Assembly (NCBI RefSeq): GCF_902497775.2
Contig: NZ_OZ024668.1
Span: forward strand, 4,448,326-4,512,325
Direction of reading: 5' to 3'
Origin: Pseudomonas fluorescens
Lineage (GTDB): Bacteria; Pseudomonadota; Gammaproteobacteria; Pseudomonadales; Pseudomonadaceae
Length of the DNA stretch: 64,000 nt
Below are positions 1 through 3,473 of this stretch, piece by piece (positions within the stretch are counted from its first letter, which is position 1; every line of letters starts with the position of its first letter). The notes below the pieces were generated by a model that saw nothing but the letters and a program-made list of their open reading frames with translations, had not been told where the DNA came from and did not search any database. Position numbers and translations under genes: made by a program.

Positions 1-1546
1 TCTGCAGGCTCGACTCGGTGCCTTCCTGATAGCGCAAGATCCGTCCACCAGTGTGCGGGTGCAGGTCGACCAGGCTGTAGCTACGAGGCGATCCACCGAA
101 GTAGGTCATGCGCGTGTAGTAGGTGATGTCCACCGCTTGCCACTGGCGAGCAACCTGATTGCCGACCTTGCGCAGGGCATTGCGACTGTCGACGATGGTA
201 GTCTGGCCTTCACCGGGTTGCGGTGCCGTCTTGCAGTAGAGCATGAACTTGCTCGCGCAAAACTTCGGATCACGCTGAACCTGGGTATCGCTGGCCGGCA
301 GCATGTTCAGGTCCCAGTGCAGCGGGGTTTTCTCCAAGGAGTGCACCACGCCCTCAGGTTTGTCTGCAGGCTTGACCACATGCACCTTGCCGAAGGCCCA
401 CTGGTAGATAGTGCCGAAACGTTCGCAGTCGCGGGCGAAACTGTCGCGATCCTCGAACTGGCAGCCTCGCAGGCAGACAAAGCCGAAGGCTTCTACCAGC
501 TTTTCCAGCAACTGCGTCGAGAAGCGCTCGAAGCCCAAGCCAAGCGGATCGCGTACCACCAGGCCGAACAATGGGCGCTTCTGCAGTTCGAACTCGAAAC
601 CCTGCAACGCTTCGCCCGCTGTTTCGTGATACAGCCAGGGCCTGCCCTGATACTGCACCAGCACATGCTTGTCGAGGTCCACTTCAGCATGGCCGCGCAA
701 GGTCTGGCTACCGTCCAACTGCCGCACCGGCACCGCATGCCAGGGGCTGGAAACCCGCGTCAGACCGTCCGCCAGGGCCAAGGTGAACTTCGGCCCGGCA
801 TTGTCATACTGATGCACCGACAGGCGGATGTCGTCGGGGAAAAAGCGATTGACCGCGGCATTCAGTGCGTGGCCGCGGAACATCATCTGGTAGGCCTTGT
901 AGCCGATCTGCAGCAGATGCTCGTCTTCGCTCTGCCCCGCTTCGCGGCACAGGCGCAGGTCGTTGTAGAGGTGGCTGCAGAGCTTGTCGTGGCCGTGGCT
1001 GAGGGTCTCGTCAGTACGGCTCTGCTCGATCAGCGCCTCGACGTTCTTCCACGGCAGGCGGGCCTGCTTGACCAGGGTGGCACGCACGGCGTCGGCACTG
1101 CTGGCCTGGGGGAACAGGTCTTCCATGCTCACCCAGTTGATCGTGTGGGTGGTGCACAACTCGCGCAACGCCTGGTTGTAGGCTTTGCGCACGTCGTCAG
1201 GCACACCGACGATGTCGTTGAAGGTGGTGCCGTCACTCAAGATCGACACCACGCAACCCGGGCTGTGCAGCGCGGCAATCTCCTGGCCCAGTTGATCGAG
1301 GCGTTCGATGGCCATGGCCTCGCCGTAGTCCGGCAGCGTGCCGAAGGTCTGGTCGCGGGCGTTCGGCGACTTGCACGGGAAGCCCGGCAGCACCAGGCGT
1401 ACCGGTGCCTGCTGCGCGTAGAAATGAGCAAGGCTTGCAGCGAGGTTGGCGCGACCTGCGGTGTCGAAGCGATCGTCGCGTTCCTTGAGCAGATAACCCG
1501 CCAGCACATCGCTGACCGCCTTGATCCAGGTGTCCTTGTGTTGCAT
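1..1546 (-). CDS. Fused isonitrile synthase / Fe(II)-2OG oxygenase (PvcA-TauD type), partial
   Basis: The gene runs off the left edge; 515 codons are visible with no stop. Residues 1 to about 320 match the DIT1/PvcA isonitrile synthase family, which converts the amino group of an aromatic amino acid to an isonitrile using ribulose 5-phosphate: FPCKSPN at 56-62, LPDYGE at 71-76 and LSDGTTFND at 103-111. From about 325 a TauD/PvcB-like oxygenase begins, with an HWD iron-binding motif at 410-412; the distal His should lie beyond the edge. PvcA and PvcB are usually separate proteins, so this is a natural fusion. The ATG has an AGGAAG ribosome site and lies 27 bp after the HAD gene, so it is the third gene of one operon. 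Family assignment is strong; substrate and product are unknown. Confidence 0.85.
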   Translation of the reverse strand, partial: MQHKDTWIKAVSDVLAGYLLKERDDRFDTAGRANLAASLAHFYAQQAPVRLVLPGFPCKSPNARDQTFGTLPDYGEAMAIERLDQLGQEIAALHSPGCVVSILSDGTTFNDIVGVPDDVRKAYNQALRELCTTHTINWVSMEDLFPQASSADAVRATLVKQARLPWKNVEALIEQSRTDETLSHGHDKLCSHLYNDLRLCREAGQSEDEHLLQIGYKAYQMMFRGHALNAAVNRFFPDDIRLSVHQYDNAGPKFTLALADGLTRVSSPWHAVPVRQLDGSQTLRGHAEVDLDKHVLVQYQGRPWLYHETAGEALQGFEFELQKRPLFGLVVRDPLGLGFERFSTQLLEKLVEAFGFVCLRGCQFEDRDSFARDCERFGTIYQWAFGKVHVVKPADKPEGVVHSLEKTPLHWDLNMLPASDTQVQRDPKFCASKFMLYCKTAPQPGEGQTTIVDSRNALRKVGNQVARQWQAVDITYYTRMTYFGGSPRSYSLVDLHPHTGGRILRYQEGTESSLQ

Positions 1547-1573
1547 GACCTTTCTTCCTTGAGAGGTGGTGTA

Positions 1574-2281
1574 TCAGAGCAGGCTGGCAACAGCGCCAGC
1601 CTCGCGAGCTTGGTTGGCTAAATGCAGGGCATGCAGCAGGTCTGCCGGCTGCTCGCAGTAAAAATCCGCAGCCTGAGCCTGCAGGGCAAAGACCCGGCCA
1701 TAGCCCCAGGTCACGGCAACGGCGCGCATGCCAGCGGCGCGCGCGGTCATTAGGTCGATGACGGTATCGCCGACAAACAGGCAACGGGACGGTTCGACTG
1801 CCAGATGGCGGGCCGCTTGCAGCGCCGCGTCAGGCTGAGGTTTGAGTGGGTAGCCACGGCGCTGGCCAAGCACGATCTCGAAGGTGTCCGCAGGGAACAA
1901 CCGGGCGGCGACCTGCAGGGCCATGTCATGGGCCTTGTTGGTGACGATGGCCATCGGCAGTTGCCACTGGCGGCAGCCCTCAAGCAGCTCCAGCACGCCG
2001 TCGAACGGTCGCGAGAACTGCACCAGGTGCTGCTGGTAGCAGGCGATGTACTGCTCATGCAGGGCCTTGTCGTCGGTAATCCCCAGGCGTGCGGCAACCC
2101 GCTCGAGCATCGCGCCGGTACCGCCGCCCACGTAGGCACTGATGGTTTCCAGCGCCAAGGCTGGGTGGCCTTGCTCGCGCAGCACCCGGTTCAGGCACCA
2201 GACGATATCGGGCAAGGTGTCGACCAGGGTGCCGTCAAGGTCGAAGATAACGGCATCCGCCGCTAACGCGACCGGCATCAT
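1574..2281 (-). CDS. HAD-superfamily phosphatase (phosphoglycolate phosphatase-like) in isonitrile operon
   Basis: This 235-residue protein carries all four HAD motifs: DLDGT at 14-18, VTN at 113-115, the Lys in PLKP near 147, and GDTVID at 171-176. It has the helical cap of the Gph/PGP subfamily between residues 20 and 85. It starts at an ATGATG that overlaps the stop of the upstream isonitrile synthase (ATGA), so the two are translationally coupled. Known HAD members hydrolyse small phosphate esters. Here the enzyme may act on a phosphorylated pathway intermediate or on a sugar phosphate released by the synthases, which use ribulose 5-phosphate; that role is inferred from position only. A house-keeping phosphoglycolate phosphatase is the alternative. 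Confidence 0.85.
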   Translation of the reverse strand: MMPVALAADAVIFDLDGTLVDTLPDIVWCLNRVLREQGHPALALETISAYVGGGTGAMLERVAARLGITDDKALHEQYIACYQQHLVQFSRPFDGVLELLEGCRQWQLPMAIVTNKAHDMALQVAARLFPADTFEIVLGQRRGYPLKPQPDAALQAARHLAVEPSRCLFVGDTVIDLMTARAAGMRAVAVTWGYGRVFALQAQAADFYCEQPADLLHALHLANQAREAGAVASLL

Positions 2282-3273
2282 TGCGCACTGGCGTAGTGAC
2301 AAGGGCGGCCCTGGCGGAACACCAGGCGGCTGTAGCGCTCGTCTATGTTGCTGCGTTTGTCGAGCATCACCACCCCGCTGCGCTTGATCGCCACCGAGTG
2401 CCAGGGCGTGCGCCACAGGTCGCTGGTGGGCACCAGGCGAATACCGATCTTCGCCGACACCGCCAGTTGCGGGTGAATCGACAGGCGCAGGCACTGTGGA
2501 TAACGCGCCTGCAGCAGCGCACTCCAGGCTTCACTGCGCTGGATCACCCGTTGCGAGGCCGGCTTGGCGATCTTCTTCACAGCGTTGAGACTCATGCCGG
2601 CGAACTCGGCAAGGCCCGAGTAATCCTCGGACAAAAAGCGGTGGATGCCGCAGTACATCAGCATCATGTGCGGCTCGTCCTGAAAGCGCTGGCCCAGCGC
2701 GATCAGCGACTGGCCGTACGCGATCATCAGTTCCTCGCGCATCGAATCCAGGCAGCCCAACTGCGGGTAGGCATCCTTGAGGTCGAACAGGGCGAAGCTG
2801 TGCGGATAGTGCTGCTGCGCGTAGCGCTGGATCTCGTCGGTGTAGGCCTTGACGTGGTCATCAGGCACCCGCACCAGGTCGGAAAACACGTAGCCGTCGG
2901 AGCAAATGTGAATCAACGCGCCCGGCGCATACAGGGCCTGGATTTCCGCGCACAGGTGCTGCAGCTCGTCGATGGCGTGGCGCTCGGCAAGGTCTGGCAA
3001 GTGGCTGAGGGTTTTTTGCCGGTTCGGCGACTTGCCCGGAAAGGCGGGCAAGACCATCTCGATACGCTGGCCGGCATCGATAGCCTTGAGGACTTTATCC
3101 AGATGCGGCTCGAGCACTTCGGCCGACAGCTCATCATCCTGCCCGGGCGCCAGGCTGCGGCGACGGAACAGGCAGTCGAGCACCTGCACGGCGGTATCGA
3201 GGTGCGGGGAGGTATGGCGTTCGCGCAGCAGCGCGAGGCACGCCCGTTGAGCAACGGCGTTAAGCTCGGTCAT
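2278..3273 (-). CDS. Isonitrile synthase, DIT1/PvcA family, stand-alone
   Basis: This 331-residue protein is of the PvcA/IsnA family. Visible family blocks are PAFPGKSPN at 76-84, LPDLAE at 92-97 and CSDGYVFSDL at 124-133, all in the usual order. The enzyme class builds an isonitrile on the alpha nitrogen of tyrosine or tryptophan. It is the first gene of a three-gene minus-strand operon with a HAD phosphatase and a PvcA-oxygenase fusion, so the cell encodes two divergent synthases side by side. The ATG at 3273 was chosen because upstream in-frame codons run through a REP element and show no family similarity. The amino-acid substrate cannot be read from sequence. Confidence 0.88.
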   Translation of the reverse strand: MTELNAVAQRACLALLRERHTSPHLDTAVQVLDCLFRRRSLAPGQDDELSAEVLEPHLDKVLKAIDAGQRIEMVLPAFPGKSPNRQKTLSHLPDLAERHAIDELQHLCAEIQALYAPGALIHICSDGYVFSDLVRVPDDHVKAYTDEIQRYAQQHYPHSFALFDLKDAYPQLGCLDSMREELMIAYGQSLIALGQRFQDEPHMMLMYCGIHRFLSEDYSGLAEFAGMSLNAVKKIAKPASQRVIQRSEAWSALLQARYPQCLRLSIHPQLAVSAKIGIRLVPTSDLWRTPWHSVAIKRSGVVMLDKRSNIDERYSRLVFRQGRPCHYASAQ

Positions 3274-3347
3274 GGACAATCCCTTGTGTGGTGAATCACG
3301 GCCAGCATCCTCTGGCCATGCGCAGATACTCCTTACCTGCGCGGCGA

Positions 3348-3378
3348 TAAAATCCGGCAAACCCGGGGTACTTGTCAA
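3348..3378 (-). promoter_or_regulatory. Candidate sigma-70 promoter of the isonitrile operon
   Basis: On the minus strand a perfect TTGACA (3378-3373) lies about 100 bp before the first isonitrile gene. The -10 is poor: GATTTT or ATTTTA at 18-19 bp spacing. No operator is obvious. Confidence 0.3.
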
Positions 3379-3433: not shown

Positions 3434-3473
3434 AAAAAAAAACGCCCCAGGCTCTGCAGCCTGGGGCGTTTTC
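3434..3473 (-). terminator. Rho-independent terminator of cyoABCDE
   Basis: A 13-bp perfect stem (3441-3453 with 3458-3470) has a CTGC loop. On the minus strand it is followed by a run of T, 17 bp downstream of the cyoE stop. Confidence 0.9.

Follow-up and report, generated by a model that had tools for sequence, protein, structure and literature searches.

The stretch of DNA analysed here (the window) comprised 64,000 nucleotides (nt) of Pseudomonas fluorescens (contig NZ_OZ024668.1, positions 4,448,326 to 4,512,325) and harbored at its left end a compact three-gene cassette of the isonitrile (isocyanide) biosynthesis type. This trio spanned genome positions 4448111-4451598 on the minus strand and was composed of the following genes:

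Window 2278..3273, minus strand: ICS1, stand-alone PvcA-type isonitrile synthase (ICS) of 331 amino acids (aa); DIT1_PvcA, 259.5 bits.
Window 1574..2281, minus strand: HAD-family phosphatase, phosphoglycolate-phosphatase-like, 235 aa; HAD_2, 117.1 bits.
Window 1..1546, continuing to genome position 4448111, minus strand: ICS2-DOX (the fusion), a synthase domain (ICS2) joined to a TauD/PvcB-type iron/2-oxoglutarate (Fe/2OG) oxygenase, 586 aa.

The final 215 nt of the fusion gene lay beyond the left window edge. Leftward extension into the genome carried the reading to its stop at 4448111 and gave 586 aa in a single open frame, so that the frameshift contemplated in an earlier, sequence-only reading of this DNA was absent. 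The start of the HAD gene overlapped the stop of ICS1 (ATGATG) and its end was separated from the fusion gene by 27 nt. ICS1 and the fusion (194.2 bits) both scored far above the cut-off of Pfam family DIT1_PvcA (PF05141, 26.4 bits), and the C-terminal half of the fusion did so for TauD (123.2 bits, cut-off 27), which upheld the initial claim of two PvcA-type synthases and a TauD/PvcB-type oxygenase, one synthase being fused. The operon content had been correctly described for both synthases and the fusion; the middle gene, the HAD phosphatase, had been left unnamed. Ratios of nonsynonymous to synonymous substitution rates (dN/dS) ranged from 0.04 to 0.20 in 18 comparisons (three genes, this genome against six loci) and were mostly highest in HAD, dS being near saturation (1.06-1.90) in the nine farther comparisons; on account of these low ratios all three genes look maintained. 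The cassette is real, complete and conserved, and its enzyme families were already known. Two AlphaFold models rested on overly shallow alignments, one with 23 and one with 22 close homologues, and were useless (mean pLDDT 35.5 and 37.4).

A contig scan with the fusion, which considered one genome per species and reached close relatives only, gathered 23 loci, all from Pseudomonas and 79-94 % identical. ICS1, HAD and the fusion were encountered in the same order in all 23 (trio checked by tblastn). Among 398 sampled Pseudomonas genomes (this and the following counts include the present genome), PF05141 was found in 25, of which 19 displayed two neighbouring matches and six a single one. The complete trio, HAD included, was present in all 19 two-match genomes (18 fetched loci and the present one); the fusion was fully read in 18 of them, and in the other (G355) only its first 236 residues were read, inside an open frame of 595. 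The trio was the commonest PF05141 arrangement (19 of 25 positives) and occurred in ~5 % of the sampled Pseudomonas genomes (19/398). Used as a query, the fusion displayed a full-length match of at least 76 % identity in 15 out of 298 genomes. PF05141 was detected in six out of 398 genomes of a phylum sample and in four out of 369 of a class sample, the present genome belonging to both, and neither sample contained a second genome with two matches. No match was found among 50,697 phage records. Fourteen plasmid records displayed matches, all below 60 % identity, and among the five examined the synthase pair occurred only on plasmid plas2 of Burkholderia stagnalis. The genome of P. frederiksbergensis 36C6 harbored two cassettes on one contig (L013 and L014), in opposite orientation on stretches ~130 kb apart; they shared ORF (open reading frame) pattern and leader and could reflect either a true duplication or an assembly artefact in which sequences were joined. 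In the clusters on Streptomyces plasmids (L076 and L077), a lone ICS gene was accompanied by genes for a P450, an asparagine-synthase-like protein, an MFS transporter and an ABC transporter of the iron type.

The two synthases were only distantly related: over 266 aligned columns, ICS1 and ICS2 displayed 31 % identity. ICS1 scored 209 bits against the P. aeruginosa PvcA structure 3e59. With 225.9 and 84.4 bits, ICS1 and the fusion remained below the cut-off of 600 for NF045653, the NCBIfam equivalog of L-tyrosine isonitrile synthase PvcA. The sequence-only reading had suggested a mixed Tyr/Trp product; since ICS1, though PvcA-like, lies far under the L-Tyr synthase cut-off, the scores speak neither for nor against such a mixture. 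ICS2, represented by 13 rows, kept 22 of the 23 positions that were identical in 27 other ICS rows, a set to which the ICS1 rows belonged; the exception was K87, replaced by Q in nine of the 13. As these positions were kept and several common aromatic residues were lost, it is probable that ICS2 is active and that its pocket differs. An arrangement in which one synthase is redundant or accessory, the fusion making the product with support from ICS1 (compare AmbI1 and its redundant partner AmbI2), appears unlikely. It has a precedent in the hapalindole clusters, where a second synthase is conserved yet functionally redundant (PMC4236562), but the two enzymes concerned are at least 78 % identical according to that source, far above the value found here; moreover, both present synthases are apparently under purifying selection and ICS2 retains nearly all invariant residues.

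In a tree of 40 chosen ICS rows, which included no Dit1 row, ICS1 joined the stand-alone ICS of B. stagnalis (support 100/100) and ICS2 joined the fused ICS of the same cluster (support 91/78). Over its full length, the fusion was 37.3 % identical to its B. stagnalis counterpart, against 27 % for another Pseudomonas fusion (L063). Given these joins and identities and the oxygenase motifs shared with B. stagnalis (see below), the simplest reading would be that ICS1 and ICS2 have been partners for a long time, through joint inheritance or transfer, and did not arise by a recent duplication. The rows from pvcA-pvcB pairs shared one half of the tree with ICS1. This placement, albeit in a tree devoid of Dit1, argues against a hydrated N-formyl compound as final product instead of an isonitrile, as do the PvcB-type oxygenase fused to ICS2 and the report that fungi yield the tyrosine isonitrile in stable form (PMC13005658). 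An N-formyl product, suggested by the fact that PF05141 also covers yeast Dit1, reported to give formyl tyrosine (PMC7345447), is consequently regarded as very improbable.

The oxygenase half of the fusion displayed a complete set of catalytic residues. H410, D412 and H566 aligned with H101, D103 and H250 of PIsnB, which form the 2-His-1-Asp iron site, and R582 with R265, the carboxylate anchor (residue roles according to PMC9467999); the distal iron ligand, on which the sequence-only reading had reserved judgement, was thus in place as H566. The residues at PIsnB positions H101, D103, H250, W74 and R265 were identical in all rows of a 21-row oxygenase alignment, ten of which were Pseudomonas trio fusions. 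According to Kim et al. 2022 (PMC9467999), enzymes forming vinyl isonitriles carry K/R at position 107 and N/H at 188, those forming isocyanoacrylates carry L at 107 and C at 188, and the outcome is not switched by single changes. The ten trio fusions and the Burkholderia fusion all displayed P at 107 and Q at 188 (11/11 rows), which departs from the vinyl-isonitrile signature at both positions. With respect to the isocyanoacrylate signature, Q188 is contrary, and position 107 reads P as aligned but L if a one-residue insertion is placed elsewhere. The first signature was displayed by six of the 21 rows (PIsnB included), the second by two, and neither by 13, namely the ten trio fusions, the Burkholderia fusion, L063 and a Hymenobacter protein. 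Motifs of the trio fusions were HWDLN[M/L]LP and RYQEG, and those of the Burkholderia fusion HWDLSMLP and RYQEG. The trio oxygenase therefore fits neither published selectivity type cleanly, as judged from the aligned residues. Two points weigh against an unusual type: the HWDLNMLP motif holds the one-residue insertion through which its leucine could fall at 107, and L063 and the Hymenobacter protein also depart from the selectivity rule, so that such departures are not confined to the trio clade. L063 itself is a distinct ICS-oxygenase fusion of 618 aa and the sole PF05141 match of its Pseudomonas genome (G132). A further plasmid of the same B. stagnalis strain, plas1 (L074), harbored another ICS adjoining an oxygenase with PIsnB-type signature residues, neither of them annotated in the table consulted.

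The HAD protein clearly belonged to its superfamily, as indicated by the HAD_2 score. Its best NCBIfam matches stayed under the respective cut-offs (PRK13222, 148.6 bits against 225; another, 140 against 180), which places it outside the phosphoglycolate phosphatase equivalogs. Motifs DLDGT, VTNK and GDTxxD were kept in the present protein and in 41 related HAD sequences, some of them from the same genome. The present genome displayed six further matches to this protein (25-33 % identity), and the cassette HAD is on that account an extra copy.

Genes outside the trio differed by lineage. The cyo genes were found near the cassette in the present genome, P. donghuensis, P. wadenswilerensis and P. 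rubra, while the P. corrugata and P. mandelii groups displayed other flanking gene sets. Neighbours were compared by means of computed ORF clusters, to which GC-rich DNA adds spurious reverse ORFs; within the fetched stretches, no neighbouring ORF family occurred in more than 11 of the 24 loci, the present one included. Cyo oxidase was discarded as a partner, being near the cassette only in the present genome and three of the 23 loci. An ORF of ~376 aa was called on the 3' side of the fusion in P. donghuensis (L026:9871-11004, 377 aa), P. wadenswilerensis and P. rubra; it was rejected as a fourth cassette gene, since it was not called in the present genome or in the other 20 loci, and one representative displayed no Pfam match.

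This inconstancy of the flanks bears on the suggestion of the sequence-only reading that the cassette could make a bis-isonitrile. Fungal xanthocillin involves a dimerising P450. A scheme in which the products of both synthases end up in a single covalent bis-isonitrile or mixed dimer, on the pattern of fungal xanthocillin, would agree with the joint occurrence of two different synthases in 23/23 loci and 19/19 genomes. The cassette encoded no P450, nonribosomal peptide synthetase, ligase or other coupling enzyme, and the fetched stretches supplied no constant neighbour family that could stand in for one. Formation by the cassette alone is disfavoured by the lack of an encoded coupling enzyme and found no support; a coupling enzyme encoded elsewhere might still act, but a joint product of this kind is considered quite improbable.

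A second flanking feature lies just beyond the fusion:

Genome 4445874-4448060 (L003:9875-12061), opposite strand, convergent with the fusion: TonB-dependent receptor, FpvA/FauA-like.

The ends of this siderophore-type receptor gene and of the fusion gene lay 50 nt apart, and the receptor best resembled the pyoverdine receptor FpvA. A cassette forming part of a chalkophore-like metal-uptake system together with it could be imagined from this proximity and from the copper binding of isonitriles (PMC5974471). The receptor, however, faces the other way, is of the FpvA type and adjoined the cassette only in the present genome and in two of the 23 loci (P. rubra and P. donghuensis), there with ~1.25 kb in between; it was missing from the other 21 stretches, which extend at most 8 kb past the fusion. 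The present genome displayed 21 matches to the receptor, itself included, and relatives displayed many weaker ones. As it stood beside the cassette in so few loci, the receptor was rejected as a partner, and such an uptake system is hardly to be expected.

Upstream of ICS1, the following features were distinguished:

Window 3276..3287, minus strand: weak hairpin SL3, ACAA-GGGA-UUGU, around the likely ICS1 ribosome-binding site.
Window 3300..3317, minus strand: hairpin SL2, GGCCAG-AGGAUG-CUGGCC.
Window 3322..3340, minus strand: hairpin SL1, GCAGGUA-AGGAG-UAUCUGC, seven pairs, putative RsmA/RsmE site.
Window 3373..3378, minus strand: TTGACA box, putative -35 element of the operon promoter, with no clear -10.
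Window 3438..3473, minus strand: terminator-like hairpin, 16-pair stem followed by a T run, between cyoE and ICS1.

The terminator-like hairpin would set a boundary between the cytochrome bo oxidase genes upstream and the operon. Three Rfam matches (E 0.09-0.65) lay over this terminator region rather than the leader, far under their gathering scores, and were dismissed as chance. A consensus promoter scan upstream of ICS1 found no promoter. The TTGACA box was present in all 33 distinct untrimmed leaders (from 42). Thirty-one of these were aligned after trimming at TTGACA, so that the invariance of the box in the alignment is by construction; the other two (L061 and L053), in which TTGACA lies farther from the start codon, both displayed SL1 with GGA when inspected by eye.

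Across the 31 aligned leaders, 99.1 % of SL1 cells were paired, one pair being changed on both sides and one displaying three pair types, and 26 leaders carried GGA within or at the loop of this hairpin. SL2 was paired in 95.4 % of cells, with two pairs changed on both sides, and contained GGA in just 11. SL3 varied only by non-pairing cells, which leaves its pairing without covariation support; GGA at the ICS1 ribosome-binding site was present in all 31, and the present leader displayed GGA in all three sites. The structure derived from the present leader paired 96.5 % of cells over the alignment against 27-38 % when slid, a control biased towards any structure that comes from a row of the alignment itself. 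The covariation score was 0.130 against 0.088 in shuffles, none of 500 being as high, a result that kinship alone can give. Three pairs changed on both sides and ten further pair types were counted; as 43 and 35 out of 500 shuffles, respectively, matched these counts, they are weak on their own. The most telling columns were 46-57 (GU 18, AU 8, GC 5) and 49-55 (AU 25, CG 5).

Targets of RsmA/RsmE binding are GGA motifs in leaders and close to ribosome-binding sites (PMC4353343, PMC3684763). In view of the conserved leader hairpins, mostly with GGA in the loop, Rsm control of the cassette mRNA is a good hypothesis. Several observations count against it: the present sites match the full motif A/U-CANGGANG-U/A given in PMC4353343 in part only, as judged by eye; SL1 lacked GGA in five leaders; and the fold of the present leader was only slightly better than shuffled sequences (z -1.35, 18 out of 200 as good). 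No literature link between GacA and this operon was found among the best-ranked matches listed.

Taken as the best explanation of the observed gene content, frames, catalytic residues, co-occurrence, synthase divergence and leader hairpins, from which activities, substrates, product, phosphatase role and Rsm control were inferred, the trio would constitute a self-contained cassette for isonitrile formation, in which both synthases work, the fused oxygenase desaturates the ICS2 product and the HAD enzyme handles a phosphate ester. ICS1 would convert an amino acid, aromatic if its relation to PvcA is a guide, and ribulose-5-phosphate into an isonitrile amino acid, a route from these two substrates being named in PMC7949033. 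ICS2 would perform the same reaction on a second substrate, or on the same substrate for its own use, and hand its product to the fused Fe/2OG oxygenase for desaturation at the Calpha-Cbeta bond. As a guess, the HAD enzyme would hydrolyse a phosphate ester left by the synthase reaction or inhibiting it. The product or products might diffuse out or use a general exporter, and would serve as a metabolite, subject to regulation, with a metal-binding or antimicrobial function.

A two-synthase cassette is favoured by the domains, intact frames and kept residues, by the 23/23 and 19/19 co-occurrence amid changing flanks, by the tree pairing with B. stagnalis, and by the higher expression of the P. 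corrugata trio in the wild type (see below). Certain findings weigh on the other side. ICS2 lacks aromatic residues common in other rows (W250 replaced by L228, W287 by V265 and F213 by H192) and could, in view of these losses, have another activity; its join with Burkholderia is under the usual support threshold, the Burkholderia branch, with 5.78 changes per column, being flagged as long and unsure; no exporter or resistance gene was conserved beside the cassette in the fetched stretches; and the phosphatase is not universal to the synthase pair, since the B. stagnalis cluster lacks a HAD gene. On balance, the self-contained cassette is held to be slightly better than an even bet. A bolder version is a tentative proposal, well short of even: the oxygenase would represent a third functional type of isonitrile desaturase, specific for an isonitrile amino acid other than that of tyrosine and opening a new product class, and the cassette would give a mixed, Rsm-controlled output of two isonitriles in ~5 % of the Pseudomonas genomes of the sample.

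The cassette is a probable source of one reactive isonitrile or two. With a trio that stays constant while its neighbours change, it offers a small system in which to ask why bacteria keep two isonitrile synthases. As its oxygenase fits neither class of the published product-prediction rule, it would also provide a direct test of that rule. Finally, this commonest PF05141 arrangement of the sampled Pseudomonas genomes is as yet associated with no product in the open-licence literature, among the matches listed.

Among known systems, the closest was published by Licciardello et al. 2018 (PMC5890197), who reported adjacent genes DIT1_1, gph_2 and DIT1_2 in P. corrugata to be under the control of PcoR and RfiA, with a logFC (log fold change) of 3.15-3.57 in the wild type over pcoR and rfiA mutants. 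Like the present genes, they encode a PvcA-like protein, a phosphoglycolate-phosphatase-like protein and a PvcA protein with a CAS-like oxygenase domain; the relation to PvcA and the extra CAS-like domain were noted there, and the product was not named in the parts of that report dealing with the trio. Names, order and domains lead us to infer that these genes are the present trio, and no structural difference from the cassette was seen in what the report describes. The locus of P. corrugata DSM 7228 displayed 76 % identity for ICS1 and 79 % for the fusion. The proviso of the sequence-only reading, that the same three genes might already be described with a known product, was thus borne out only in part, by a matching trio lacking a named product.

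The B. stagnalis plas2 pair (L073) resembled the present one in its stand-alone ICS (50.5 % identical), its fused ICS-DOX and its close oxygenase motifs. Unlike the cassette, its annotated stretch contained no HAD gene; an MFS transporter, a small PTP-like protein (a sub-threshold match, 26.1 against 27 bits) and a 53-aa ORF stood between the synthases, and a glycosyltransferase-like gene came after. Pairs pvcA-pvcB of the paerucumarin type share the two enzyme families and the same invariant residues but consist of separate genes with a single synthase, and six aligned pairs from Pseudomonas and other gammaproteobacteria displayed the oxygenase motif HWDGMY[K/L/R], which differs from that of the trio. 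Hapalindole-type I1-I2-I3 genes also keep two synthases and one oxygenase together (PMC4236562); they were set apart by description, as separate genes with closely similar synthases, I2 being reported redundant. Bacterial and fungal ICS-dioxygenase fusions and the icsA/icsB cluster of Aspergillus fumigatus are likewise in print (Lim et al. 2018, PMC5974471). Fungal icsA and icsB, XanB and the Vibrio IsnAB fusion share the fused architecture, and the A. fumigatus 4G cluster combines a fusion with a single-domain ICS; compared by description, fungal clusters differ from the cassette in additional genes, e.g. P450s and transporters. The sequence-only reading had presented the cassette as new with respect to paerucumarin. 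Isonitrile biosynthesis with a fused synthase-oxygenase agrees with the sequence, while the claim to novelty is weakened by the hapalindole, A. fumigatus, bacterial fusion and P. corrugata precedents, as far as these sources describe them. As deduced from its alignments, the present cassette is set apart from such precedents by the combination of two divergent synthases, both with nearly all invariant residues, and an oxygenase fitting neither signature cleanly.

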